Shown here: piece after piece, positions 2,231 to 28,394 of the stretch
Numbering within the stretch: position 1 is the first letter of the stretch
How the letters are laid out: each line of letters opens with the position of its first letter
Source: Aequorivita vladivostokensis
Lineage (GTDB): Bacteria; Bacteroidota; Bacteroidia; Flavobacteriales; Flavobacteriaceae
Direction: 5' to 3'
DNA: 64,000 nucleotides
NCBI RefSeq assembly: GCF_000952855.1
Contig: NZ_JSVU01000002.1
Coordinates: forward strand, 186,001 to 250,000
Made by a program: the position numbers and the translations under genes
The notes under the pieces: generated by a model
Databases searched by the model: none
What the model saw: only the letters and a program-made list of their open reading frames with translations
What the model was told of the DNA's origin: nothing

Positions 2231-4162
2231 ATGTATCTATCATTTCTAAATATTAAAAATTTCCGTGGTATAAAGGAAATGTCTTTAAATTTTAATAAAA
2301 GCATCAATATTCTCATTGGTGAGAATGGAAGCAATAAATCGACCGTTATTGATGCCATAAGGTTACTTTATAATATGGGTGAGCCGTTGCGGGATATCTC
2401 TGTTGGATTTAGTGATTTTCACGAAACCATCATTAAAGACCCCAAAGGGAATATTTCAATTTCCAAAGAAAATTTAATCACAATATCCTTTGAATTCAGA
2501 GGTCTTTCTGCTTCACAAAAAGGTGCGCTCTATGAATATATGGTCATTGACCCTGAAGATGATACTAATGAATATGCTAAAGTAACGTTAACATATGAAA
2601 ATAAAGGTGGTAAATATCCTATATCATCATACTACACAGGTAATTCAGAAGGACAAAAAGCAGATTTTAATACTTTCGAAATTTTTCAGCATTATTATTT
2701 AAGCGGCTTAAGAGATAGTACACGCGATTTGTTAAGTAGTCGAGGGAATGTTTTAGGAAGAGTTATTAAGAGGCGTATTGAACAAAATGAATCTGAAGCT
2801 ACTATTGAAGATATTATGACACGAGCCAATGATGAACTATTGCAACAGTCGGAAGTTTCAGATACCAGAACTGGGGTAAATGAAAATCTTTCAGGTATCT
2901 ACCAAAGATTTAAGGACAACCAAATTGGTCTGCAAATCGAACAATCTAAAACAGAATATATTGTAAATGCTATTAAACCGTTTTTACCCCATAACAGAGT
3001 ATCTCTATCTGGGGACGGATTTTCCCTTTGGCAAAATAGTTTAGGACAAAACAACCTTATATATATCGCTACAGTACTTGGGGATATAAAAGAACAGATT
3101 AAGGACAATAAAATTCCTCATTTTGCATTGCTTATTGAAGAACCGGAAGCTCATCTACATCCTCAACTTCAATTAAGCCTTTACGGTTTCTTGAGAGATT
3201 CAAGTACTTCAAAAAATAGTCAATTATTTATAACATCGCATTCTCCGACATTGACCTCGAAAGTACCTTTAAAAAACCTAATTCTATTGGATAGCCAATC
3301 TTTCAGTTTAAGCGAACAGTTTGAAGATAGGGAAAAAGAAAACATTGTTGAAGATACCCTAAAGAATAAAAAACTTACAACTGCTGACTTCAAAAACAGA
3401 CAAAAGCAGTTAGAAAGGTACATTGATGTGACTAAATCACAACTGCTATTTGCAAAAGCTATACTTTTTGTTGAAGGGATTTCAGAAGAATTATTGATAT
3501 CGGCCTTTACGGCCGTGGAAAAATATCGTTTGGAAGATTACCGAATTGAACTTGTAAATATTGGTGGCACCAGCTTCTATCCGTTTATACACCTATTTAA
3601 TTCTAAGCAATCAAAAAAATCCATAGACAAACCAGTTTCAATATTAACAGATAATGACAAGTTTCCAAACTCAAAAAGAAAGGAATTTTCATTCAATAAA
3701 TTAATTGCTGATAAATATGCAAAACTGGATGAATTAGACGCATCAATTCAAGGTGCTGCATCCTCATCAAGAATACCCAATATCGTATCATCAATAAATG
3801 GCAAAACCACCATTAAAATTTTCCCTGCTGAAAAAACATTGGAATATGAGCTGGCATTAGCGAATGTTCCTAAAGCAAAAAGCGAAATTGAAAAAAATTT
3901 CCTGTTTAAATATATTAAGAAAATAAGGCCAGAAAAAGTAGTTGCAATATCAGACTATCTTGTGACCATTACTACAGATGACCTTACAGAAGACCAAAGA
4001 AGAAAAATAGCTATTCTTCTCTGGAAATCCTTTCCTTCCAAAGGAACTTTCTCTCAAAATTTCTCATTGTATTTACTTAAGAACTTAAAACGTGCACGCA
4101 AATCATTTGTGATTCCCAAGTACATTTTGGATAGCCTTGAACATTTAAAGCAAGGTTTATGA
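2231..4162 (+). CDS. gajA: OLD-family ATPase/TOPRIM nuclease, Gabija GajA-like
   Basis: Probable defence endonuclease of the class 2 OLD family. An N-terminal ABC-type ATPase half has an FRGIKE-type opening and a P-loop at residues 30-38 (GENGSNKST). An ABC Walker B region (LLIEEPEAHLHP, about 299-310) and the switch motif ITSHSP follow. The C-terminal half is a TOPRIM domain with the glutamate motif LFVEGISEE (about 410) and the acidic TDND motif (about 472). The next gene is a UvrD-type helicase overlapping by 4 bases, which is the Gabija (GajAB) arrangement. In Gabija, GajA cuts DNA and is held off by ATP. The P-loop is odd: Asn35 stands where the last Gly of GxxxxGK[ST] is usual. At 643 aa it is longer than the Bacillus GajA I know (about 580). 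Confidence 0.8.
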   Translation: MYLSFLNIKNFRGIKEMSLNFNKSINILIGENGSNKSTVIDAIRLLYNMGEPLRDISVGFSDFHETIIKDPKGNISISKENLITISFEFRGLSASQKGALYEYMVIDPEDDTNEYAKVTLTYENKGGKYPISSYYTGNSEGQKADFNTFEIFQHYYLSGLRDSTRDLLSSRGNVLGRVIKRRIEQNESEATIEDIMTRANDELLQQSEVSDTRTGVNENLSGIYQRFKDNQIGLQIEQSKTEYIVNAIKPFLPHNRVSLSGDGFSLWQNSLGQNNLIYIATVLGDIKEQIKDNKIPHFALLIEEPEAHLHPQLQLSLYGFLRDSSTSKNSQLFITSHSPTLTSKVPLKNLILLDSQSFSLSEQFEDREKENIVEDTLKNKKLTTADFKNRQKQLERYIDVTKSQLLFAKAILFVEGISEELLISAFTAVEKYRLEDYRIELVNIGGTSFYPFIHLFNSKQSKKSIDKPVSILTDNDKFPNSKRKEFSFNKLIADKYAKLDELDASIQGAASSSRIPNIVSSINGKTTIKIFPAEKTLEYELALANVPKAKSEIEKNFLFKYIKKIRPEKVVAISDYLVTITTDDLTEDQRRKIAILLWKSFPSKGTFSQNFSLYLLKNLKRARKSFVIPKYILDSLEHLKQGL

Positions 4163-5973
4163 AATTAGATATTAATCCAGAATTACAAGCATATTTTGAT
4201 GTGCGTGGAAAGGTGGTGTTGAATGCTTGTCCTGGTGGTGGCAAGACTACTGCAATTGCCCAAAAAATAATAAACCTTGAATCAGAATACAGGGACTTGT
4301 ATGGCAAATACTCTGGTATTGCTTGTTTGTCATTTACCAATGCGGCAAAGGATGAAATCAATAAAACATATACAAATTTATGTAATCAATCACTTCAATA
4401 TCCCCATTTGGTGAGTACTATTGACAGCTTTATCAATTTATATATAACACTTCCATACTATTATCTTTTAGAGAGAAATTTTGCAAGACCCCAAATTTTA
4501 GAGAACAATTCACGATTAGATTCCTTTTGGAAAATAAAATATAAGAACAAAAGCGGAAAGTTAGTTGATGGTATTACTCAAAAGATGAATACTTTTAAGG
4601 CAAGGGACAATCGTAGCGTGTATTTTTTGTATCCACCTTCTCAAATAAGACTTGAACCTAATGGAAGTTATTCAGTTAACGGAAACGCTCCTTCAGCAGA
4701 AAAAGTGGACTTAAACGTTTTTAAAGACTATTGTACCTATATTAAAAAATGGCAATTTGAAAAAGGTCTTATTACGACTAATGATTCAGCATTTATTGCG
4801 TACACACTTTTAAGAAAAAATCCAACTATTGCCGAATGGCTTGTAAAACGTTTCCCGCACATTATTATTGATGAAGCACAGGATAATTCTTTATTGCAAC
4901 ATCAAATATTTGAAGTGTTAAACGAACAAGGCTTAAAGAATATAGAATTTATCGGCGACCCCTATCAAAGCCTTTATGAATTCAGGGATGCGAACCCTCA
5001 ATTATTTATAGATAAATTCAATCATCAAGATTATGAGGGTTTGAATCTTACCAATAACAGAAGGTCTTCACAGCATATTATTGATTGTTTTTCACTATTG
5101 AGACCTTTAACAGAGAGAACGATTAAAAGTGCTTGCAAGGAAAACTTAAACGAGCCAATCCTAATTTATCGTTACAAAACAGAAGGCAAAAGCAGTGTCA
5201 TCAACCATTTTGAATCTCATTGCAATTGGAAAGGTTTTATGGATAAAAAAGTTGTTGTTAGGGGAAATACAGTAAGAAACAAAATGCTTGGTAGAGATGC
5301 CCTACAAAAACCTTGGCATAATGATTTGGCTTATAATCTGATTACGGCAAAAATCGAATATGAAGATAAAAATTTAAGAGACGCAATTAATATTGCTCGT
5401 CACATAGTCATCGATTTAGAGAATCCAGAACTCTCATATTCCGAAAGAGCCCACTTACGAGCAGACCTCAAAACGAACTATAATTTTAATGCGAGACTCA
5501 TAAAATTTATTCGGAAGTTGCCTAATCTCTCGTATTCTGTCAGAGATTGGTCAACCAAATGTCCTAAATATGTGAAAGATGCCTTGGGTTTAGATTATGA
5601 TATAGATTTCGGTTTGAAAAGAGCTTCAAAATATTTAGATAAATCCACGCTCGATGAACCCGTTTCTGACCACTTTAATCGTGTTGACATTGATAAAACG
5701 AGTACTTTAACTACTGTGCACCAAGTCAAGGGAAAAACACTTGATGCGATACTTATATTTTTCGATGAAAACAACCATATTCAAAACATAAACTTCAGAG
5801 ATATTGAACCAGAAAAGGAAGGTTTTATTTCTGAAAAAAAACGAATTATTTATGTTGCTATGTCAAGACCAAAACATTTATTGTCTATGGCATTTCCAGA
5901 GAAGATTACAGAAAAACAGTTGAAGGAAAGGTTTGGCAAAAGCATAGTAATTCTCAATTCTGAAGATTTATGA
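4159..5973 (+). CDS. gajB: UvrD/PcrA-like superfamily 1 helicase, Gabija GajB-like
   Basis: The second Gabija component. SF1 helicase motifs are present in order: Walker A at residues 24-31 (CPGGGKTT), Walker B (IIIDEAQDNS, about 234-243), the GDPYQSLYEFR motif III region, TVHQVKGKTLDAILIF (about 518), and the motif VI region YVAMSRPKHLL near the C-terminus. In Gabija, GajB is thought to sense DNA ends or nucleotide state and to activate GajA. The start codon overlaps the stop of the OLD gene (ATGA), so the pair is translationally coupled. At 604 aa it is larger than the GajB I know (about 500), with extra sequence between motifs III and V. It ends 24 bases from the stop of the convergent gene on the other strand. 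Confidence 0.8.
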   Translation: MKLDINPELQAYFDVRGKVVLNACPGGGKTTAIAQKIINLESEYRDLYGKYSGIACLSFTNAAKDEINKTYTNLCNQSLQYPHLVSTIDSFINLYITLPYYYLLERNFARPQILENNSRLDSFWKIKYKNKSGKLVDGITQKMNTFKARDNRSVYFLYPPSQIRLEPNGSYSVNGNAPSAEKVDLNVFKDYCTYIKKWQFEKGLITTNDSAFIAYTLLRKNPTIAEWLVKRFPHIIIDEAQDNSLLQHQIFEVLNEQGLKNIEFIGDPYQSLYEFRDANPQLFIDKFNHQDYEGLNLTNNRRSSQHIIDCFSLLRPLTERTIKSACKENLNEPILIYRYKTEGKSSVINHFESHCNWKGFMDKKVVVRGNTVRNKMLGRDALQKPWHNDLAYNLITAKIEYEDKNLRDAINIARHIVIDLENPELSYSERAHLRADLKTNYNFNARLIKFIRKLPNLSYSVRDWSTKCPKYVKDALGLDYDIDFGLKRASKYLDKSTLDEPVSDHFNRVDIDKTSTLTTVHQVKGKTLDAILIFFDENNHIQNINFRDIEPEKEGFISEKKRIIYVAMSRPKHLLSMAFPEKITEKQLKERFGKSIVILNSEDL

Positions 5974-5997: not shown

Positions 5998-7689
5998 TTA
6001 TTCAGGAAGCACATCCCTAAATTTATCAACAAGTAAGGCTGTGGGAAATTTATATTCCTGAAATCGATTCCCAATTGGCGATAATCTATTGTAAAATGAT
6101 TCATTGGCCTGTTTCATTGCTTCTTGCAAGTTAGGGCTATTGATTTTAGCAACCTTGTTCATTTTTCTATGGTGGTCATCAACTATATCCTTCAAGTGAA
6201 AATCTTTCTCCCTTAAATGTGGCTGCCAAAAAATGAGAGTATCTATATCAATAAAGGTTAAATTCTTAATGAAATCAGGATTGTATTTGTTGCCTAATTT
6301 TTCTTTAACAAGTTCCAAATGCCACTTGTTAAGTGTATAATTCATCCCAAGAATTTCAAATATTCTATCGCTGACGATTAAAATAGGATAAATAATTAAA
6401 TTTTCAATTTGATTTGCATATTCATCATACTTAAAGTCATTTTCCACAATCTGTTGAATTGAGTTTACGAGCTGCCCTATACCAACTGCGCGGTCGCCAT
6501 CGTCAAGAAATTTTTTCTTTAAAAGCTTTTTAATATCATCAATGTCCGATGAACTTTTGATTCCAGCTGCTACAAGAACATCTTTATTTTCAAAAAGATA
6601 AATGGTATTTGAGTGACGTGAGTAATAGTCAGGCTCATTGTCTTTTGTATTTACCTCTTGTCGTTTTACCATATAATCCCAATGAAAAATATCATCAAGT
6701 ACTCGTTTCATTAAAAATTCCTCGGAAAATTTAGTATTGTAGAAGCTAAAGAACGAACCGTCCTTCGGTGGAAGGTTGTGATGTGCATTGTATGCATCTT
6801 TCAAAATAAATCGAACACTTTTAAAAAACTTGTCCACCACAAAAAAATAATCAATGAATGAAAATGTTTTTTCGTCAATTTTATAAATGGGATAGTTCTT
6901 TAGGTTCGTAAAATCAGAAGATTCATCAATTTCTGCAGACGCAAGTGTGTTTAAAAAGCGAATGTGTTTGGCTTTTTCTGGAACGAGTTTATAAACCTTC
7001 TCATATTTCATCTTAAATACTGTCGCAAGAAGTAATTTGACTTGCTTTTTTAAATCTGCAATGTTTACTTCTTTGAAGTTTTTACACAAGGCTACTTCCA
7101 AATATTGGTATTCCTTCTGTGATGCTAAAAATTCTAACAAGTATTCAAATTTGACAATCGTGGTGTAAAGTAATTTTCCAAATTCCCAATCCGTATTTGA
7201 ATAAAGGCCAATGTCCGCAGATGAAAATGCCATCGTAATGGCCATATCCGCCATCTTATCGACATTGTCCTGTGAATTGCCAAAATTCTGTTTGATATTG
7301 ACTTCTTTATTGATAATAAGAAACGCTTTGAAAATATTGATTTCATCGGAATCTTTGTCACTGTTCTTGTTCTCATCCAACAATGTTTTCCGATTGGCTA
7401 AAATGATTTCTGCCAATCTCAAGCTTGCTTCTCGGGAAACTACTTCCGGTGGTTCTGGAAGTTTATTTTCTCTACCATATTTCTTAACTCTCTGGATGAT
7501 ATCCCATTGTATATCTTGATTATTAAAAAAATTATCAAAATTAGGTGCAGGAACAATATTGTTAAACCCAATAATTCCTAAAAGTGTTGGTGCTGAAACC
7601 AGTTTTAAATATTCTAAAACAGTATTTGGTTTTTCTTCGGGAAAAACATTTTCAAATTCTAATCTTTGTACAGTTTTTATAATACTCAT
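5998..7689 (-). CDS. Uncharacterised protein with a C-terminal PD-(D/E)xK-like motif
   Basis: I do not recognise a named family. The protein (563 aa) opens with an FPEE motif (residues 16-19) and a long helical N-terminal half. A domain from about 265 carries YPIYKIDE, then EPDYY and LFENKD, giving Asp354 and Glu367-x-Lys369, the layout of a PD-(D/E)xK nuclease core. Further on are YPILIV (strand) and FIDIDTLIF. The same blocks in the same order occur in the 585-aa protein at 24161-25918, so the two are homologous but strongly diverged. The gene is preceded by a GIY-YIG-like gene 9 bases upstream in its own transcript. Nuclease activity is inferred; only the motif is seen. The setting is a defence island. 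Confidence 0.6.
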   Translation of the reverse strand: MSIIKTVQRLEFENVFPEEKPNTVLEYLKLVSAPTLLGIIGFNNIVPAPNFDNFFNNQDIQWDIIQRVKKYGRENKLPEPPEVVSREASLRLAEIILANRKTLLDENKNSDKDSDEINIFKAFLIINKEVNIKQNFGNSQDNVDKMADMAITMAFSSADIGLYSNTDWEFGKLLYTTIVKFEYLLEFLASQKEYQYLEVALCKNFKEVNIADLKKQVKLLLATVFKMKYEKVYKLVPEKAKHIRFLNTLASAEIDESSDFTNLKNYPIYKIDEKTFSFIDYFFVVDKFFKSVRFILKDAYNAHHNLPPKDGSFFSFYNTKFSEEFLMKRVLDDIFHWDYMVKRQEVNTKDNEPDYYSRHSNTIYLFENKDVLVAAGIKSSSDIDDIKKLLKKKFLDDGDRAVGIGQLVNSIQQIVENDFKYDEYANQIENLIIYPILIVSDRIFEILGMNYTLNKWHLELVKEKLGNKYNPDFIKNLTFIDIDTLIFWQPHLREKDFHLKDIVDDHHRKMNKVAKINSPNLQEAMKQANESFYNRLSPIGNRFQEYKFPTALLVDKFRDVLPE

Positions 7690-9348: not shown

Positions 9349-10329
9349 CTAATTGATGTCCCATTTAACTTCTTTTAACCTTGAACCAATCTTCATCAAT
9401 GATTGCAAAACATCCTTTTCATCAGGAAGTTCGCCGATTAGCAATTCCTTGAAAGAAGTTGAATAGGTTTTGCTTAAAGTTGCCCAAACCTTCTCCGTTT
9501 CACTAAAAAACAACGATTCTGATGGGTGTTTGGACAGCCATTCTTTGTCATTAGGTATCGCCTTGTCATCATCTTTTCCAACTTGTATAAGCATCGTTTC
9601 AAAATCATCTGATTTTAAAAATGCAGAAATTCTCTTTGCCTGTAGCAATTGATGCAGATCATAGGTATGTCGGACTTTATTAGCCAAATCCTCCAAAGGG
9701 TTTTCGGTATATGAAAATCTGACCAGGCTTATTATCTTTTCGCAAAAAGTACGCTCGATAATGATTACATTTACCTTAAAAGGTTCAAGTTGGTATTCTT
9801 TGATAAGGTCTGGATTATTGGTTGTGGCAATAAATTGTGTAATCATTGAATGTATTTCTACCTTTTCAGAAGGATGTGAATTCCCCAGACTTGAAACTTC
9901 TAATACAATTTGATCCCTCACTTGTCCATATGTTCCTTTAACACCTACTTTGTCATAACCATAGACCACTTTTCTAATCTTCCCACGTTTGTTTTCCAAT
10001 GGGTGGTTGGGAATGACGGTCATAACCGTTCCTACAACATTGGTTACTTTTTTTAGTTTTCGTTTTAACGAATTGTCTGTTTCATCTTCCTCCTTGATAA
10101 CCACTAAATCAATATCTTCTGAAAAGCGGTCGATAATACCGAAACACTTGGAAAGAGACGTTCCGCCTTTAAAAACAGTAATATCTATGGAATTGGCATC
10201 CGTAAAAATTTGTTTTAGGGCAAAAGTTACCCAATAGTCCTTTTCGATATAGACTTCGGAAATTCCAAAATGTTGTGCGGTTGCTACGATAGCACCCTCA
10301 AAGGCATCTTTATAGTTGTGTAATTTCAT
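9349..10329 (-). CDS. AbiEii/AbiGii nucleotidyltransferase toxin
   Basis: Toxin half of a type IV toxin-antitoxin/abortive infection system. The nucleotidyltransferase signature is clear: FKGGTSLSK followed by RFSEDIDLVV, giving the metal-binding acidic pair, at about residues 53-77. AbiEii toxins transfer nucleotides to cellular RNA acceptors (tRNA in studied members) and arrest growth. The gene (326 aa, normal length) starts one base inside the stop of the antitoxin gene upstream (10329 shared), so the two are coupled. The gene order antitoxin then toxin matches AbiE systems. The frame is intact. Confidence 0.88.
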   Translation of the reverse strand: MKLHNYKDAFEGAIVATAQHFGISEVYIEKDYWVTFALKQIFTDANSIDITVFKGGTSLSKCFGIIDRFSEDIDLVVIKEEDETDNSLKRKLKKVTNVVGTVMTVIPNHPLENKRGKIRKVVYGYDKVGVKGTYGQVRDQIVLEVSSLGNSHPSEKVEIHSMITQFIATTNNPDLIKEYQLEPFKVNVIIIERTFCEKIISLVRFSYTENPLEDLANKVRHTYDLHQLLQAKRISAFLKSDDFETMLIQVGKDDDKAIPNDKEWLSKHPSESLFFSETEKVWATLSKTYSTSFKELLIGELPDEKDVLQSLMKIGSRLKEVKWDIN

Positions 10330-11054
10330 TAGACGATGTTCCAGTTTGAGATAGTAGGCAATGTATTTTGAGATATTCCAAATTCATAACTGCTCAAATA
10401 ATTAATGGTTTCTTTAAGTGACTCGCTTAATTGGTCAAATGAAAGAACTTCAAGAATTGCGCCTAACAAAGCCCTTACCTTTGGCGGATAGGCTTTTGCA
10501 AAATTGGTCAACTTCTCTTTATCTTCATCCGAAAGGTTATCAATCTTTTTCTTTAGAAAATCAACCCCTATCTTTTGATCCATATCTGGAATGTACTTGA
10601 AATCCTTTATTACGTCCAAAAGTTGCAACAATGGTACATTCTTTCTTGTAACAGGAACGTAACTCTTGGCCGGTTTTATAATAAGGCTCCCAATTTTTGT
10701 CTTTATCTCTTTATCCTTACTTGCCAATCTCACAACGTTAGGAACTTGTGTGGTCAAGCCAAGTTGATTGTATAATCGAACTCCGGTTATGTAAGCAATC
10801 TGTTTATCGTTTTCAAAGAGGTAATTTTTAAGCAATACATCTTCTCTCGGTTTTAGTTCGCCAAAAACTGTTTGCTTGGGCTTATAGTACATCCCATTTT
10901 TATATCTCTTGATAACTCCATTAGCAACCAATCGGCTTAAAGCTTTAGCTGCAGCAGAAAATTCACTTTGAGGAATAGACAAAGTATCGTATGTAAATAC
11001 TTCTCCAGTATCTATACGAGCAACTTTTGTTTTTATGGATGTTGTTATATTCAT
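10329..11054 (-). CDS. AbiEi-type antitoxin (DUF6088)
   Basis: Antitoxin of the type IV pair. The N-terminal part (residues 1-75) is a winged-helix-like DNA-binding region with the AbiEi features (VFTYDTLSIP, ALSRLVANGVIKRYKNGMYYKP). The C-terminal part (about 80-240) is the antitoxin domain seen in DUF6088 proteins. AbiEi proteins counter the nucleotidyltransferase and also repress their own promoter. Consistent with that, a 16-bp inverted repeat overlaps the promoter just upstream (see 11065-11095). It shares one base with the toxin gene. Confidence 0.85.
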   Translation of the reverse strand: MNITTSIKTKVARIDTGEVFTYDTLSIPQSEFSAAAKALSRLVANGVIKRYKNGMYYKPKQTVFGELKPREDVLLKNYLFENDKQIAYITGVRLYNQLGLTTQVPNVVRLASKDKEIKTKIGSLIIKPAKSYVPVTRKNVPLLQLLDVIKDFKYIPDMDQKIGVDFLKKKIDNLSDEDKEKLTNFAKAYPPKVRALLGAILEVLSFDQLSESLKETINYLSSYEFGISQNTLPTISNWNIV

Positions 11055-19190: not shown

Positions 19191-22100
19191 TTACTTGCTA
19201 CTTATTATTTGCAAATTAACATCGCCTACTGTAGCAAGGTAATGGCTTGTTGTAGCTAACAATGATAAAATACTATCTGAAGCATTTACTTTTGATAACG
19301 ATGGCTGGACTATGTAAATATGAAACTTTGTATCAAGATTCCATTTAACAGCTGTGAGAAGCAATTCAAGCTCTTCTTCTGTACCTTTTATAAGTCTTGA
19401 GCATTCTTTATCTTTTTCTTTTTTAATTATTCGCTTAAAGAGATGAACAAACAATTCTTTTCCTTCCCTATATTTCCAGTTTAAGGATTTTTGCGCTTGA
19501 CCACAGACTTGATAAAAATTGTCAATGTTATTACCTACTTTACCGCCTTTCGCATATTTCAGATGAAATAGATGTATATCTATTTTTCCTTCTGATTTGT
19601 TTATGGCCACCACGTCGGCAATTTCCCCTGAACCGTCGTCGTCATAAATTATGTCGTAATCATCTTTTATCTTCTGAATGAATTGATATTGAATAGAATC
19701 TTGAATATAGGGTGCAATGCCCATTGATTCCTTATTCAAAGACACACCATCCCAATTCCAACTCTGTAATAAATCCTTGTCGAAATTTTCAACTGGGTCT
19801 TTTGGTTTGAAATAATAATTTAATTCAAGTTGTGAACCGTCTGCAAAAAAGATTATAGGATGAAAGTCATTTAAAAATTCTTCTAATTTCTCAACTTTAC
19901 TGCCATAGCTCACAGTTGCATCATCGTTACCAATTTTTACTATTTTACAATTTGGCACAGGGACACCATCAAGTAATTTTGAACCTAAAATAATCTCAAA
20001 TTCTATACTTAAGTCATCACAATCCCAAGAAAATTTGATTGGATTTTCAACTTTTGTATCAATTATATTCAATTCAGAATTGGATAAGTCATATGTTTTC
20101 TGATTACTTTTTATTTTGAATGAATATCGGTGTTCTGGATGCCTATAAATTTCAGCATTCCAATCTACAGCTATTGGAAGTGTATTTGTTGGACGACTTG
20201 TAATAACTATTGGAATGATAGTGTTTTTTAAAAATATATTTGGATTAATAGTGTCATTGATAAGTATGCTTCCTAAATTTTCACACCAATCATTCAATTC
20301 TTTTAAATTACCTCGAAGATATGCCCAGACTTTACCTTTTACAGAGCAACCTATGGAAACCTGCTCGCCTGAAGTATATCCAGTACCGAAAGCATTGTTC
20401 TTCTTTAATGTTCCTTGTTCAAGCTGTTTTATTCCATCTTCTACATTTTTACCAAAAAAAGATTGATAGCTAATATCTTGACCAATTCCTTTGCGGCCAC
20501 CAAAATTATAAAGTCTCAATCGTTTAACATCGTGAAAAACTCTAAAAACATTCATTCCGTTTATAATTGAATTTGGCTCATTGAAAATAGCATTTATCAA
20601 TTTTTCACTTTTTAAAGATTTGAATGATGTATGAATATATGCCAGGTTACTTTCCTTCCTTTTATCCCAATGCACTACCAATAATTCCCATTGCAAATTT
20701 TTAACTGAATCAAAAGTTCCCCAATCTGTCCTTCCAGTTTTACCTAAAATGACCACCAAAGTTTTCTCATTATCGTTTACATCACTGAATTGATGCTCAT
20801 AAGATTCAATATTTGCAATACCTTCCTTCCAATTATTTGGATTCCATTGTTCACAAGTAACCTTATAAACTACGGCACTCAACGCTGGACTAATTGATTC
20901 AAAAGGTATTTCAGATTCTTTCAAATTCTTAAAACCTCCTAAAAACGTTTGAATATCAAGTTGACTTTTGGTTGCTCCTTCACTTATTTTAGGAAGTAAT
21001 GCATTCCAATCACTTCCTTTGGCATAAAGTTCATCAAGTTCTTGCTGTATAGGTGGATAAGCTGTATTCGTTATGAATGTTGCGTCCCCAATATTATTTC
21101 CAGATGTTCGTGTAAATCTTCCGATAAATTGAAGCATAATTGGAATACTTTGTCGGTCATCGTGGATGGCTGCAATTTTCAATTCTGGTAAATCAAACCC
21201 TTCGCCAAGCATATCAACACAAACAATTATTCTATGCTTTAAAAGTTTTATATTCTCTATTTTCTGTTTCAGTCCCGCAATTCCTGTATATACCAAAACA
21301 GGGGATAAATCAGAATGTGTGGAATAAAATTTAAAAACCTCTTTTGCTCTATTTTTCGTTTTGCATCTTGCAAGTAGTGCGTGGTTTAAATTTTTCGACA
21401 AATCTTCCCTTAAAACAGAAATTGCTTTTTCTGCAATCGCTTTATCGGCGCTTTCAATATTATATTCCCTTATTGGTTTAAATACAATTTTTTTGTAATA
21501 GCCTTGTTCCTGTGCTGCTTTTAAAGAGAATTCAAATATGAACTTTCCATCGAGCTTCTTCTGGTCATTTCTAAAAGGTGTAGCAGTAAATAAAAACACT
21601 TTATTTTTATCGAATAAATCAATAAAATCTCGCCAAGTTTTAGCTTCCGAATGATGCGCTTCATCAATGAAGTAATGAGAAAAAACATCACTCATTGTTG
21701 CCTTCTGGGCTTGTTCTGAACCCGATAGAATGCTCATTGTAGTAACAACTACATTTACATTTGAAAGAAATTTTTGAAGTTCGTCCTCACTCTTAAACTT
21801 TTTCGTAATTAATCCCACAATTGGATTCAATGCACTTGCGGCAACTATATTAAAATCTTTGAGCAAGCCAAGTGTAAAAAACTTTTTGAATATTTGCTCT
21901 CTTAAAGCGTCCGATGGAACTGATATAAGCAACTTCTCGCATTGATTGGCAATTAATGCTGAAATCATTGTTTCAGTTTTACCTGTTCCTGTTGGCATAA
22001 CAACAATTCCTTTATCGCTCTGATTTTGTATATGCGATAATATTGAATATAAGGCACCAAGTTGTGGTGGTCTTAAACCATTTATATTTTTCTCTAAATC

Positions 22101-22451
22101 TTCTTTTATAAAATGAAAATTTCCAAACCACGATTCTTTTACCTCTGACGGACTTTTTATAGATATGGAAGGATGCTTTATCCATCGTGTAATTGGAAGT
22201 TCTGAACGAATAAAGTCTTTTTTGGTTGGCTTTTTTGACGCTAATAATACATACTCAATCCCAGCTGGAACTTTAAGTTTTTTATCTGTTGATACCAACA
22301 TTCTATTTCCATTTGAATTAAAAATAAATGGCACTTCACTTTCCAACATACAGTTTTGGAAACTCGTTGCACCTGAAAAAAACTGTTTAGCAATATTTCC
22401 ATTTTTTTCGTAATGGTAATACTCCACATCTGGGGTCAATACTGTAATCAT
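19191..22451 (-). CDS. SF2 DEAD/DEAH helicase with a C-terminal nuclease-like region
   Basis: A 1086-aa protein. The helicase core is complete: a Q-like motif (LRPPQLGAL, about 126-134), Walker A (MPTGTGKTE, 152-160), DEAH (263-266), TATP (289-292) and motif VI QFIGRFTR (441-448). The long remainder is beta-rich. Near the C-terminus GEIADVVAI (942-950) and HLFHLKYA (960-967) resemble a PD-(D/E)xK core (Asp946, Lys965) in which the usual Glu is His963. Such helicase-nuclease proteins are common in phage-defence and restriction-like systems. An XRE regulator lies 18 bases upstream in the same transcript, and the pair is enclosed by two copies of a non-coding repeat. The exact system is not identified. 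Confidence 0.75.
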   Translation of the reverse strand: MITVLTPDVEYYHYEKNGNIAKQFFSGATSFQNCMLESEVPFIFNSNGNRMLVSTDKKLKVPAGIEYVLLASKKPTKKDFIRSELPITRWIKHPSISIKSPSEVKESWFGNFHFIKEDLEKNINGLRPPQLGALYSILSHIQNQSDKGIVVMPTGTGKTETMISALIANQCEKLLISVPSDALREQIFKKFFTLGLLKDFNIVAASALNPIVGLITKKFKSEDELQKFLSNVNVVVTTMSILSGSEQAQKATMSDVFSHYFIDEAHHSEAKTWRDFIDLFDKNKVFLFTATPFRNDQKKLDGKFIFEFSLKAAQEQGYYKKIVFKPIREYNIESADKAIAEKAISVLREDLSKNLNHALLARCKTKNRAKEVFKFYSTHSDLSPVLVYTGIAGLKQKIENIKLLKHRIIVCVDMLGEGFDLPELKIAAIHDDRQSIPIMLQFIGRFTRTSGNNIGDATFITNTAYPPIQQELDELYAKGSDWNALLPKISEGATKSQLDIQTFLGGFKNLKESEIPFESISPALSAVVYKVTCEQWNPNNWKEGIANIESYEHQFSDVNDNEKTLVVILGKTGRTDWGTFDSVKNLQWELLVVHWDKRKESNLAYIHTSFKSLKSEKLINAIFNEPNSIINGMNVFRVFHDVKRLRLYNFGGRKGIGQDISYQSFFGKNVEDGIKQLEQGTLKKNNAFGTGYTSGEQVSIGCSVKGKVWAYLRGNLKELNDWCENLGSILINDTINPNIFLKNTIIPIVITSRPTNTLPIAVDWNAEIYRHPEHRYSFKIKSNQKTYDLSNSELNIIDTKVENPIKFSWDCDDLSIEFEIILGSKLLDGVPVPNCKIVKIGNDDATVSYGSKVEKLEEFLNDFHPIIFFADGSQLELNYYFKPKDPVENFDKDLLQSWNWDGVSLNKESMGIAPYIQDSIQYQFIQKIKDDYDIIYDDDGSGEIADVVAINKSEGKIDIHLFHLKYAKGGKVGNNIDNFYQVCGQAQKSLNWKYREGKELFVHLFKRIIKKEKDKECSRLIKGTEEELELLLTAVKWNLDTKFHIYIVQPSLSKVNASDSILSLLATTSHYLATVGDVNLQIISSK

Positions 22452-22469
22452 ATAGTCAGATTTTATAAA

Positions 22470-22769
22470 CTACTCATTTTGATTGGTCAATTTCTTGATT
22501 TTTTCTTCAGCGATTTTGAGGATTTCCTCACTATTCGTTTCATACATTATCATATCAACAATCTTATCAGCCATCCAGATTTTTATCAACTCAATTTTAT
22601 TTTCATTTAAAGCGGTTGCCAAAGCTTCCACTTGCTCTTTTCGGGCTTTGCGTGTGCCACGTTCAATTTTACTTAATAAAGCTGTATCGGTATCCATTTG
22701 TGATGCTACTTCACGAAGTAATAAGTGCTTTTGTTCTCGCAATTTCCTAATGTATTCGCCAAACGTCAT
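22470..22769 (-). CDS. XRE-family transcriptional regulator
   Basis: A helix-turn-helix regulator of the Cro/CI type, residues about 1-60 (FGEYIRKLREQK, then ASQMDTDTALLSKIERGTRKA). The C-terminal part is helical and may dimerise. I choose the ATG at 22769 (MTFGEYIRK, 99 aa) over the longer frame from 22793. HTH proteins of this family start there, and a palindrome likely to be its operator (22781-22804) would otherwise overlap the coding start. It is first in the operon with the large helicase and probably controls it. Confidence 0.8.
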   Translation of the reverse strand: MTFGEYIRKLREQKHLLLREVASQMDTDTALLSKIERGTRKARKEQVEALATALNENKIELIKIWMADKIVDMIMYETNSEEILKIAEEKIKKLTNQNE

Positions 22770-22780
22770 TTTAGATATAT

Positions 22781-22804
22781 TTAGACTTGTCAATATTTGT
22801 CTAA
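22781..22804 (-). promoter_or_regulatory. Inverted repeat upstream of the XRE gene
   Basis: TTAGAC and GTCTAA form a 6-bp perfect inverted repeat with a 12-bp spacer. TTGTC occurs twice within it at a 10-bp step. It lies 12 bases upstream of the chosen XRE start, a usual place for an autoregulatory operator. Binding is inferred. Confidence 0.45.
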
Positions 22805-23352: not shown

Positions 23353-24150
23353 TTAATCTTTTATTAAAGTGAGATTTTTAAAATCAAGTAATAATTGTCG
23401 GTCGTTATCAATATGTTTCCAGTCTTTAATGTTTTCCTGAATTTGTGTAAGATAATTATTATATTTTTTCTTAAGCCATTCGTGTTTAGTAATGACACTA
23501 TTTGAATTAGAGTTCAACCCAATCTCTATCAGGCTTTTCAATTTTTTTAAATATGGGACTAAATCATAATTTGGTTCATCCAATTCGTCATTAGCCTGTG
23601 TAATATAATCTATGTAATAAAAACCATCATCATCTAAAGATAGACAACTCATTATGCTTTCAGTCTCATCTTCCAATGAATTATGAGGCATCCTATATTC
23701 CTTGCCAATCTCAATAACTTCCTCACTTATAATAATTCTTGGGTCAATCGCTTTTTGGGACTCAAGAATGTAAGCATCCACAAGTGCAGGTCCAAAAATA
23801 TGATTTTCTGTATGCAACAGTTTGCCTACGCTCACACCGCCTCTGGTCAAATATCCGTTATTTGCAAGTTCAAAAGCAATATGAAGCAAATCAATTAGAG
23901 AATAAAACACTTCGCTTGTTTCCTCAATTCTAAATGATATTACAATAGAATCAGAAAACTGTGTTACCATTTTCGATTTTGAAATGCCACTATCATATTC
24001 TATTAAAATTTTATTGGCGATATCAATAATTTGTTTTATGCTCTTTATTTTATCCTCGACATCATTTCCAGAATCATCAACAGTAGAATCAATATGCGAT
24101 TTAAAACCTAAAATATCTATAAAGCAACAAATACGGTATTCATAATTCAT
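23353..24150 (-). CDS. Protein with a class III nucleotide cyclase-like fold
   Basis: A 265-aa protein whose N-terminal 145 residues follow the class III cyclase pattern. There is a first strand with an acidic residue (CFIDILGF, Asp12), a helix, a hairpin with a second acidic residue (QFSDSIVISF, Asp67), and the strand RGGVSVG (103-109), then FGPALVDAYILE. The two aspartates stand where cyclases bind metal. The other catalytic residues cannot be confirmed. Uridylate and cytidylate cyclases of this fold make the signal in Pycsar defence, but the neighbour here is not a known Pycsar effector: it is the ExK protein gene 10 bases upstream, in the same transcript. The function is inferred from fold and place. 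Confidence 0.5.
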   Translation of the reverse strand: MNYEYRICCFIDILGFKSHIDSTVDDSGNDVEDKIKSIKQIIDIANKILIEYDSGISKSKMVTQFSDSIVISFRIEETSEVFYSLIDLLHIAFELANNGYLTRGGVSVGKLLHTENHIFGPALVDAYILESQKAIDPRIIISEEVIEIGKEYRMPHNSLEDETESIMSCLSLDDDGFYYIDYITQANDELDEPNYDLVPYLKKLKSLIEIGLNSNSNSVITKHEWLKKKYNNYLTQIQENIKDWKHIDNDRQLLLDFKNLTLIKD

Positions 24151-24160
24151 AATGAAAATT

Positions 24161-25918
24161 TTATTTTGTGACTACACTTATCATTTTCTCCAATAATTCT
24201 GTTGGTTTTGGCCTTCTAAATTTGTCGTCAATTTTGTTATCGAGGTAGTGGGCGAAAGAGGCATAGCTCTCACTAATAATATCGTCAACTTGTTGTTGGT
24301 TTTTGAAGCGGTGGTTTTTCAAATTTATATTCAAATACTTGGTATGGTATTCCAACAGACAATCTTCAAAAGAAAGTTTGCGGGTTTCAAAAAAGTGGCT
24401 GTTATAAATTAGAGTGTCCATATCTATAATGATAAGACTTCTTACATTTTCTACATTCAAACCTTCTTTATTTAAAATTGTGAGTGCATTTTTAAACCAC
24501 CCATCAATTAGCTTATTCATTCCTGGCGTATTGAACATTCTGTAATGGACAATTAATATTGGATATATATGGGCTTTTTCAGAGGGTGCGTTTTTATCAA
24601 ATGAAAGTGATTGGGTCAATATCTCTCTTATGGTGTCTTTAAGTTGCAACACTGCTTTAGCCTTGCCTTTTTCATTTTCTACAAAGGTTATTTTAAGCTT
24701 TTCCAATACTTCATAATAGTTGGTAGATTGCTTTATTTCCTTTCCTAAAAGAACATCCTTCGATTCAAACAAAAATATTCTTTTGCCATTGCGCACATAA
24801 TAATCCGGTGCTCCTTCAAACTCTGCATCCAATTCCTTACCGGACTTTTGTATAAATCTATTACCAAATATCTTCTTAAGTGTTTGATTCAATAAATATT
24901 GTTCAGAAAATTCTAAATTTTTAATGCCATAAAGGTTTTTTAACTGTTGGTTTTCCGGAAGCGTGGCATTGATGTCCTTAAAACGAAAATACAAGCCTTT
25001 GTAAATCATTTCCACCACAAATAATGGATAGATAATTCTATATTTTCCTTCATCTATTTTATAGAGCGGATAACTTCGAGTTTTGGTAAAATCAAAATCG
25101 GTTAACCTTTCATCATCCAGTTTTATATGTTTCTCAATAAACAATGAGAGTTCTTCCTGCTTGTCAGCCTCCAGATGTATTTCAGTTTGAGCCTCTCTTT
25201 TTGCGGTTAGCACGGGAAAAACAATACCCAATAATTTATGAAGATACTTCTTGAAATTTGGGACATCATAATAATTATAAAATGCCTTGATTAGATGCTC
25301 GCTACCTTGAAATGATTCTAAAAACTCAAAGAAACTGTAGGCTTTCAAAAATTGACAGTAAAACACCTTATTTATTTGGTAGTCTGTAATATCGAAACTG
25401 TGCAGATTATTTCCTATGAAAAAATTCGTGAGATTGCCATTAATATCATATTCCTTAAAATTTTGTGCTAAATCCTTACCTCGTTCCGTAATTGTTTTTT
25501 GATTGAAAACAGTGTAGGCCTTGAAAAAATTGATTTCAATATCTAAAAATTCCTCTCTGCTATATTCCTTATTATCAAATTCGGCTGGATTATCGTAAAC
25601 GTACTCAAAATAGGTAAGACTACTCATTGGATATAGGACTTCAAAACTTTCTATATCGAAATCATTTTCCCTTGCAAAAATTACCATCCGTTTATAAACA
25701 CTATCTGCAAATTGAAAATTGGCTTCTGAAAAATATTCTGGCAAAAAGCCTGTAAGACCAGAAAATTTAGAACCGCTATTTTTAATTCCCAATAGAAAAG
25801 AACCCATTAACAATCGCATATCCTTGCCTAAATCCTTCAAATAATGGTCTATGGATTTTTGTTCTTCTTCAGGAAAGCAGACCTCGAAAGTTAATGGCAT
25901 TTTAATTGTTACACCCAT
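24161..25918 (-). CDS. Uncharacterised ExK protein, homologue of the one at 5998-7689
   Basis: A 585-aa protein sharing all main blocks with the 563-aa protein: FPEE near the start (16-19), YPLYKIDE (283-290), PDYY with Asp372, LFESKD with Glu385-x-Lys387, then YPILIV, GMNKLIDGW and IIDMDTLIY. The D...ExK spacing fits a PD-(D/E)xK nuclease core. The N-terminal half is long and helical. The frame starts at 25918; an internal ATG at residue 7 is also possible. It is followed after 10 bases by the cyclase-like gene. The homologue instead pairs with a GIY-YIG gene, so a shared core seems to be used with different partners. Nuclease activity is inferred from the motif. Confidence 0.6.
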   Translation of the reverse strand: MGVTIKMPLTFEVCFPEEEQKSIDHYLKDLGKDMRLLMGSFLLGIKNSGSKFSGLTGFLPEYFSEANFQFADSVYKRMVIFARENDFDIESFEVLYPMSSLTYFEYVYDNPAEFDNKEYSREEFLDIEINFFKAYTVFNQKTITERGKDLAQNFKEYDINGNLTNFFIGNNLHSFDITDYQINKVFYCQFLKAYSFFEFLESFQGSEHLIKAFYNYYDVPNFKKYLHKLLGIVFPVLTAKREAQTEIHLEADKQEELSLFIEKHIKLDDERLTDFDFTKTRSYPLYKIDEGKYRIIYPLFVVEMIYKGLYFRFKDINATLPENQQLKNLYGIKNLEFSEQYLLNQTLKKIFGNRFIQKSGKELDAEFEGAPDYYVRNGKRIFLFESKDVLLGKEIKQSTNYYEVLEKLKITFVENEKGKAKAVLQLKDTIREILTQSLSFDKNAPSEKAHIYPILIVHYRMFNTPGMNKLIDGWFKNALTILNKEGLNVENVRSLIIIDMDTLIYNSHFFETRKLSFEDCLLEYHTKYLNINLKNHRFKNQQQVDDIISESYASFAHYLDNKIDDKFRRPKPTELLEKMISVVTK

Positions 25919-25990: not shown

Positions 25991-27370
25991 TTAAGGAAGT
26001 ATGTAATTAATTTTCCAATGGCCACCTTTTGCTCCACCCATTCTTTCAATAAGACCAATATCTTTTAGAGCATCAATATTATTATCAATGGCAGTAGGAC
26101 TTAAGCCTATTATATCTTCAAGTTCTCTTTTAGAAACTTTATTATCTTTATGAATAGCTCTAATAATTCCAACTCTATTATCAGTAAGATTATCTACCCA
26201 CTTATCTACCCACTTATCAAAATCAAAAGGTCTTCTAAATGTAACAGTAAATATACCTTCAGTATTAAATTCAGGTGGCGTTAAATCTTCTTCTACCATT
26301 AAATCCCTCATTCTACTGATACCAGAACCTACTTGTTCTACCATTCTAATTCTTTCAAATAGACCAAATATCAAAGGATTTCTACTTAAACTTCTTTTTC
26401 CAAATTCATTTTTAGGAATGCCACTAACAAGTCCGCCAGGATTTGAAACTTCAACTCTATCAGTAAAAACTTCAATGGAAATACGCGCACCTTTATCATA
26501 ATAATCTCTATGTGCCAGCGCATTGATGATTGCTTCCTTAAACACTGTTTCGGGAATTTCCCAGAGTTCCTTACGTGGCTGTGAACCTACACCCTCAATA
26601 TCATATCGAACATTAAGCTTTGTTTTAAGCCAAGCCATCGCTTGAAGGAATTGTTGATATAGCGTTCCTGCCATTGTCTTATCATCAACAATGTATCTTT
26701 TGTCAATACCATCCAAGGCAATACAACGAATTACTGCTTTTTCAAAAAACGTTTCGGGGTTTTTTGCGAAAAACAAAGCGGCACCATTTTTAAGATAACC
26801 TTCTTTTGTAATCAGTTTAAGATTTTGAAAAACCTGCTCATTGGAAATCGTGGAATTTAAACCTGCCAAATCCCTAAACTGAATAATATTGGCATCAGGA
26901 ATATCTTGTACTATATCAATGGTTTTACAGGGTGCTTCATCGAAATATATTTTATCGGCCTGTTGAAAAAAATCCCTCATTTCCTCAACCGTTGTTAGTT
27001 TTTGGGAATTAGGGCCTTGGCGTACATAAATAGCACCCGAAAGTACATAAGGTTTGCTTTCGCCCGAAGGCACTTCAATTAGCACCAACTCTTTACCATC
27101 AACCTCTAACGGATAGATTTCACAATGTAATGCAGGTGTTATTTCGTTTATTGAATTTTGAAGTGCAGAGTGCTTTGCATTATTGAAAGTAATTCCTTGA
27201 ATAACATTATTGTCATCCACACCTAATAAAATAGTGCCTCCTGCTGCATTGGCAAAGGCACAGATTTCTTCTGTGACCTCTTTGACCTTGTTTGGAATAT
27301 TTCTCTTGAATTCCACATTATAGCCCTCTCCAGATGCAATCAAGGATTTTATTTCAACGGTGCTTAACAT
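25991..27370 (-). CDS. Schlafen-type AlbA_2 / ATP-binding protein
   Basis: A 459-aa protein with three parts. Residues about 10-125 are the AlbA_2 (Schlafen-like) domain (YNVEFKRNIPN, FANAAGGTILLGVDD, YVRQGPNSQKL). Residues about 265-385 are a GHKL-type ATP-binding domain (EAIINALAHRDYYDKG, DRVEVSNPGGL, GSGISRMRDLM). The last 60 residues are a winged helix (VSKRELEDIIGLSPTAI). The family is usually called transcriptional regulator or helicase-related; many lie in defence regions. A hinge DKWVDKWVDN before the winged helix comes from a repeated 12-base unit. The gene is 72 bases upstream of the ExK gene and may be co-transcribed with it. Confidence 0.8.
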   Translation of the reverse strand: MLSTVEIKSLIASGEGYNVEFKRNIPNKVKEVTEEICAFANAAGGTILLGVDDNNVIQGITFNNAKHSALQNSINEITPALHCEIYPLEVDGKELVLIEVPSGESKPYVLSGAIYVRQGPNSQKLTTVEEMRDFFQQADKIYFDEAPCKTIDIVQDIPDANIIQFRDLAGLNSTISNEQVFQNLKLITKEGYLKNGAALFFAKNPETFFEKAVIRCIALDGIDKRYIVDDKTMAGTLYQQFLQAMAWLKTKLNVRYDIEGVGSQPRKELWEIPETVFKEAIINALAHRDYYDKGARISIEVFTDRVEVSNPGGLVSGIPKNEFGKRSLSRNPLIFGLFERIRMVEQVGSGISRMRDLMVEEDLTPPEFNTEGIFTVTFRRPFDFDKWVDKWVDNLTDNRVGIIRAIHKDNKVSKRELEDIIGLSPTAIDNNIDALKDIGLIERMGGAKGGHWKINYILP

Positions 27371-27494: not shown

Positions 27495-28394
27495 TCAATA
27501 GTGTGGCAGCTCGCCGTTATCTTTTATATTAGTAACGTAATTAAATAGGTTTAAATCGATGGTAATCCAATACTCTTTTTCAGCTTCAACTTTTTGTTTA
27601 AGACCCTTGATTATTTTTAAGGATAAATTTCTAAAATCTTCTACTACTTGAGCTAAATCGTGTTCATAGAGTTCGTAATAGTCATCTTTAAAAACCTGTT
27701 TGCTTTTTAATTTCAACTCTCTTAAAGACAGAATTGGATGCTCAATTAATAAATAATCAGCAATAAAAAAGTAATTTCGATGCATCGCTTCAAAAAAGAT
27801 TAAATCCACAGATTCTATGGGCAAATGATAATCCCTGTAACTATGCTCATCTTGAAAATTATGATAATGTTCCAATGTTGATAAGAATGTTTTTATTTCA
27901 TTTTCAAAGAGATTTCTTGAATCTTGAAAAGCATATCTCAATCTGAAAAGTGATGATCCCGCTTTTTTATCAAAAAAGTCCATATCTTTTGATATAGAAT
28001 AATTAAAGGTCTTTTGCTTAGCGAAAGCAAAAAAATTCTTTTTTATGAAATTTTTGACTGAAATAAAATACATTTCTTTTTTTTCATTGTCCGTCACACA
28101 GAGAAATACTGGTACTGGAAAGTGATACCAATAATTACTTGTCGATATTTTTATATTGGAAATAGTCAATGTATTATCCAAATTCCAATTTATATTCTCT
28201 TTAGATTTGAGTTGTATTGATGCTAAATCTCCTGTTAATTGATTTTTCTCATTTACCAATTCTACATAACAGTCGATACCATAATCTCTTTCAGTAACGT
28301 CCCTAACTATCCAATTATCCGGAATGTGGTTTGCAAATATTTTGAACGATGTTGATTCAGAAATATGTTGAGGTACTCTTTGTGGTAATTGCAT
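27495..28394 (-). CDS. DUF4365 family protein (PD-(D/E)xK-like)
   Basis: A 299-aa protein. The N-terminal domain (residues 1-130) has the DUF4365 features: an opening helix, DYGIDCYVEL (about 38-47) and IQLKSKEN (about 60-67), which together give a D...QxK nuclease-like core. The remaining part is helical and unassigned. DUF4365 proteins are common in bacterial defence islands and are presumed to act on nucleic acid; activity is not shown. A gene remnant (28408-28602) ends 13 bases upstream in the same direction, which may have been its former partner. Confidence 0.7.
   Translation of the reverse strand: MQLPQRVPQHISESTSFKIFANHIPDNWIVRDVTERDYGIDCYVELVNEKNQLTGDLASIQLKSKENINWNLDNTLTISNIKISTSNYWYHFPVPVFLCVTDNEKKEMYFISVKNFIKKNFFAFAKQKTFNYSISKDMDFFDKKAGSSLFRLRYAFQDSRNLFENEIKTFLSTLEHYHNFQDEHSYRDYHLPIESVDLIFFEAMHRNYFFIADYLLIEHPILSLRELKLKSKQVFKDDYYELYEHDLAQVVEDFRNLSLKIIKGLKQKVEAEKEYWITIDLNLFNYVTNIKDNGELPHY

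Follow-up and report, generated by a model that had tools for sequence, protein, structure and literature searches.

The 64,000-nucleotide stretch of Aequorivita vladivostokensis DNA analysed here (the window) carries two adjacent genes on its minus strand, one encoding a 585-aa protein with a PD-(D/E)XK nuclease-type domain at its C-terminus (EXK, 24161..25918), the other a 265-aa class III cyclase-fold protein (CYC, 23353..24150). We read them as a two-gene anti-phage cassette, in which a nuclease effector is joined by an exchangeable accessory with a cyclase fold and which travels as cargo of Bacteroidota conjugative elements, and give this reading a probability of roughly one half. As noted in a preliminary description of the sequence, the two open reading frames (ORFs) are separated by 10 bases, from the EXK stop to the CYC ATG (24151..24160, minus strand), a gap of equal length in five related cassettes (L009-L013). 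The operon-like arrangement claimed there is borne out, as are the defence-gene surroundings, the latter by PADLOC matches and the neighbouring genes.

The active-site motif of EXK, Asp372 to Glu385-x-Lys387 (24758..24805, minus strand), is exactly as first described. In an alignment of 18 family members, which includes both EXK proteins of the window and excludes partial relatives, residues E339, P371, D372, R376, E385, K387 and Q425 are invariant. With this conserved E...PD...ExK set the assignment to the PD-(D/E)XK nucleases is upheld, and the predicted C-terminal structure is FokI-like, apparently containing the nuclease core fold of that group; the N-terminal part has no assigned fold. 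Searched alone, EXK matches no Pfam, NCBIfam or PADLOC family at E <= 1, and none of the 18 members matches a cyclic-nucleotide-binding, TIR or other effector family in Pfam at E <= 0.1. From the cleavage domains of FokI and Nt.BspD6I and from Upx (9wuf) the protein differs in that its profile has no sequence match among the PDB chains and that no PADLOC family, Upx included, and no relevant Pfam family recognizes it, a comparison in which its N-terminal part stands without a confident model.

In CYC, the previously highlighted Asp12 in FIDILGF, Asp67 in QFSDSIV and the stretch RGGVSVG (103-109) are all present. By alignment, the two aspartates occupy the first and second metal-binding positions of class III cyclases (24115..24117 and 23950..23952, both minus strand); among 48 dereplicated CYC sequences D67 is kept in 48/48 and D12 in 46/46, two further rows being gapped at that position. 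Aligned with cyclases by hhalign, CYC scores 57.4 (P = 5.4e-8), while reversed alignments reach 11.8 and 13.2 and 50 column shuffles at most 23.0. These controls, together with the structure model, rule out a chance motif, and the cyclase fold proposed for the 265-aa protein is found both in the hidden Markov model (HMM) comparison and in the predicted structure. CYC thus shares with class III cyclases the fold, the two Asp and the R-x-G-I-x-x-G motif with its following helix (PMC4886424). It departs from them in the canonical transition-state pair (N-x3-R, in the helix after the second motif), of which the Asn is present in 5/48 and the Arg in 3/48 sequences, the window protein carrying V124 and I128 instead; the comparison is with the class III canon and not with PycC residues. 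CYC also continues past the cyclase-matching stretch with a helical region at its C-terminus, in which Lys222 is conserved. A precedent for an altered transition-state pair is the cyclase-like family DUF2652 (PMC4886424).

No Pfam family is specific to the window CYC: searched alone it gives only two chance-level Pfam entries, both below the cut-offs, and no NCBIfam or PADLOC match at E <= 1. Within the family, Pfam Guanylate_cyc is hit weakly by 2/23 sequences (E 0.0053 at best) and PADLOC PDC-M15B by 1/14 (E 0.014). The phage families phrog_23933 (matched by 23/23) and phrog_21097 (19/23) are the same family as CYC, and both are annotated as of unknown function. Profile matches to the PDB entries Ika8 and Ika4 were dropped because they are short and involve repeat proteins; adenylate cyclases also appear in these lists with weak scores, the best E being 0.046 and 0.11. 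PycC is absent among the 50 matches listed for the CYC model, which is uninformative as the rows are nearly tied.

Conserved pairing of the two genes, part of the original proposal, holds inside Aequorivita and not outside the genus, where the families occur apart. Among 28 Aequorivita genomes EXK is present in 7, CYC in 6 and the adjacent pair in 5. All six intact close EXK copies (five genomes, one with two copies) are followed by CYC at equal spacing, and a record of A. echinoideorum has the pair at 99% identity. A seventh close EXK, in genome G403, is frameshifted, and its DNA match stops 32 bases into CYC; we read the two ORFs beside it as IS21-type istA/istB. The distant CYC (G405) and the distant EXK (G396) of the genus are unpaired. 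When 20 kb of the window were compared with 16.8 kb of locus L012, the only DNA match covered EXK and CYC in full, with one further base before EXK. With L013 the match comprises EXK, CYC and 56 bases plus a separate stretch of 374 bases, and L009-L011 share longer flanks with the window. Between the window and L012, the ratio of nonsynonymous to synonymous substitution rates (dN/dS) is 0.064 for CYC and 0.069 for EXK, at a synonymous divergence (dS) of 1.4 and 1.9, respectively; for L013 the CYC dN/dS is 0.14 and the EXK dS lies beyond estimate. On these sequence comparisons, purifying selection is acting on both genes.

The genes upstream of the pair form different sets. In the window, an AlbA_2/Schlafen-type protein adjoins EXK (25991..27370, minus strand; unmatched in L012 and L013), followed farther upstream by a DUF4365 protein (27495..28394, minus strand; unmatched in L011-L013). 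L012 has IetA-IetS according to PADLOC, and L013 an AbiE-type pair, the shown residues of which are nearly those of the AbiEi-AbiEii genes of the window. The EXK-CYC pair is a cargo unit in defence regions of mobile elements.

Across 395 Bacteroidota genomes EXK was found in 15 and a CYC-profile match in 41, some of the latter being ordinary class III cyclases. The only overlap is the genome of the window itself (G000), against a chance expectation of ~1.6, with both lists taken, judging from their handles, to cover the same 395 genomes. All 18 fetched loci with both families are from Aequorivita, several of which represent one and the same place, and no adjacent EXK-CYC pair from outside the genus is among the fetched loci. 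Another 34 hold EXK without CYC (some overlapping in place, the broken G403 included), and 115 have CYC-profile matches alone, a number that repeats and ordinary class III cyclases may inflate. Relatives of CYC occur in 23 viral contigs and an EXK relative in one; neither protein has a match in the phage records, and one distant CYC gene used as query has no DNA match in E. coli genomes. In Hymenobacter, with eight plasmid records, the two regions read have EXK without an adjacent CYC. At 3371-4129 and 90418-92106, the plasmid record NZ_CP110140.1 (L182, given as linear) holds one gene of each family, the CYC being a distant one; the two flank a cluster for copper transport provided that the record is circular. 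At two other loci, similar-looking 340-aa proteins (L055, 7673-8698; L056, 7688-8704) overlap the end of a CYC-less EXK gene; the one in L055 has no PADLOC match and a weak Pfam match.

Outside the genus, the closest CYC encountered is that of L174, which is 61-64% identical to the Aequorivita proteins and has a different partner. It starts 17 bases, counting the stop codon, downstream of a gene for a 1265-aa protein matching Upx over its C-terminal third (E = 1e-29). The downstream DNA of the element that carries it matches that of L012 and L013, and in the tree its CYC groups with that of L013, inside the EXK-paired ones, with a support of 93/92, which is below the firm-support mark of the tool. 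EXK and the Upx-like protein of L174 show no common sequence (hhalign score 17.9, against 18.0 with the reversed protein).

To count such neighbours, loci shorter than 3.5 kb, ORFs of at least 420 aa and copies at >=95% identity were dropped, genes were called by a simple longest-ORF method and gaps included the stop codon. Of the 67 non-redundant CYC loci thus obtained, 32 have a same-strand gene of at least 100 aa within 160 bases upstream, which in four cases is EXK. HMM scans of nine of the 28 other close upstream genes (Pfam only for L153) gave matches to restriction or defence-type families in eight, namely Upx, DrmMI, ZorD, the Septu-like PDC-M62B, HsdS, GmrSD_N/HEC-05, DUF1016, which we take to be a nuclease family, and AbiEii; the ninth is ParA with a weak PDC-M28B match. 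By annotation, L119 is a further case of AbiEii before CYC, and L179 has a PDC-S18 gene 193 bases upstream. That relatives of CYC follow several different anti-virus genes hints at a shared helper role. Several of the remaining close upstream genes look to us like phage genes or spurious ORFs, and many of the remaining CYC loci lie in phage, RepABC-plasmid, copper-gene or ordinary surroundings. On Rhodobacterales plasmids the CYC gene directly follows AbiEii (L016, 5977-6816; L119, 4977-5816); in three viral contigs (L076, L083, L084) it touches or nearly touches a ParA-type gene, and the CYC of L069 has an internal stop.

Several observations weigh against a nuclease effector with a cyclase-fold accessory. 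The accessory role of CYC is drawn from gene context only, and in 35/67 of the non-redundant loci there is no same-strand upstream gene of at least 100 aa within 160 bases. Many of these neighbour-less loci lie in phage, plasmid or ordinary chromosomal surroundings, and from the many loci without a close upstream gene CYC may act alone. The nine scanned neighbours were picked by eye, and no background rate stands beside the 8/9. Finally, the EXK structure model is weak, with a mean predicted local distance difference test score (pLDDT) of 60.5 and the first 180 residues mostly below 50.

A serious rival, which we nevertheless regard as somewhat doubtful, is that the pair consists of two independent single-gene defences that share one transcript and travel together, CYC and EXK each acting alone on phage. 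The occurrence of each family without the other outside Aequorivita would fit, as would the solitary EXK genes in the two Hymenobacter regions and the many viral contigs and plasmids in which CYC has no defence-type neighbour. However, the gene order, the 10-base gap and the pair itself have been kept over very high synonymous divergence behind three different upstream gene sets, and in several defence operons CYC is the last gene.

The preliminary description had suggested a cyclase-linked nuclease system. As a dedicated signalling pair from cyclase to nuclease, in the manner of Pycsar, this would mean that upon infection CYC makes a cyclic nucleotide, which the N-terminal part of EXK would bind to switch on the nuclease. 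In Pycsar, whose cyclase makes cUMP or cCMP, cyclase and effector are regularly paired across genomes. EXK and CYC show no such regularity: the pair is not obligate, CYC occurs with other partners, including the one found beside the 61-64% identical protein, and the window CYC matched no PADLOC model. Nor does EXK contain a Pfam cyclic-nucleotide-binding domain or belong to a transmembrane or TIR effector family at the sequence level, and paired EXK proteins are no longer than solo ones and alike in layout in the alignment. A nucleotide receptor in the N-terminal part of EXK is possible, as the fold there has no confident model. What the two systems have in common is a class III cyclase fold and two metal-binding Asp in a protein encoded beside a putative effector, among defence genes (Pycsar, PycC with PycTM or PycTIR; PMC11224242), although the partner of CYC is nuclease-like. 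Because a receptor domain recognizable by sequence, regular pairing and, in most CYC proteins, the canonical Asn/Arg pair are all missing, the proposal is not supported and we consider a Pycsar-type pair unlikely. Least probable of all is a catalytically idle CYC that restrains EXK until infection, in the role of an inhibitor or an immunity-type partner. The missing transition-state pair, the position directly downstream of EXK and the joint damage to both genes in G403 would suit it, but the invariant metal Asp point to metal-dependent chemistry or binding and EXK genes outside Aequorivita persist with no CYC beside them.

Like EXK-CYC, Panoptes (OptS/OptE) has two genes, one for a protein with the fold of a nucleotide-signal enzyme and one for an effector. 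It differs from EXK-CYC in the mCpol domain of OptS and the membrane effector OptE, where EXK-CYC has a class III fold and a nuclease (PMC12657218). In the titles and abstract openings that literature searches returned there was no CYC-EXK pair and no accessory with a cyclase fold in Zorya, DISARM or Septu; in passages of PMC10952713, the single mention of nucleotide cyclases refers to CBASS and Pycsar.

If EXK-CYC is an effector with an exchangeable accessory, EXK would be the effector, its N-terminal part sensing something made during infection and its FokI-like PD-(D/E)XK domain, predicted from the active site and the modelled fold, cutting DNA. EXK can probably act without CYC, because the EXK members found outside Aequorivita have no neighbouring CYC. 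CYC appears to have joined several different defence operons as an accessory, probably co-transcribed with them, and may bind or convert a nucleotide and so tune or license the neighbouring effector. We prefer this to the view that CYC signals to a dedicated receptor by a cyclic pyrimidine, as in Pycsar.

Elsewhere in the window, an EXK paralogue (28% identity; 5998..7689, minus strand) has no CYC gene. It sits between Gabija and AbiE, with a gene for a 185-aa protein ~10 bases upstream. The Gabija pair GajA-GajB lies at 2231-5973 on the plus strand (PADLOC E = 1e-285 and 4.5e-105) and the AbiEi/AbiEii-type pair at 9349-11054 on the minus strand. A ResIII-type helicase of 1086 aa (19191-22793, minus strand) with a helix-turn-helix gene upstream is unmatched in the otherwise similar L009 locus. 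In our reading the window also holds conjugation genes.

What emerges is a two-gene nuclease cassette that is open to testing, along with a group of cyclase-like proteins whose metal sites are intact but whose catalytic pair is altered. More tentatively, CYC may found a family of cyclase-fold accessories shared by many unrelated defence systems (the nuclease EXK, Upx-like, Zorya, DISARM, Septu-like, AbiE and restriction systems). These systems would then come under one form of nucleotide-based control, in which CYC might act as a nucleotide-pool sensor or decoy, by a chemistry unlike that of canonical class III cyclases. If this is true, phrog_23933 and phrog_21097, two families of phage proteins with no listed function, would gain one, and one cyclase-fold protein would be an exchangeable control part for many anti-phage systems, a new layer of bacterial immunity.
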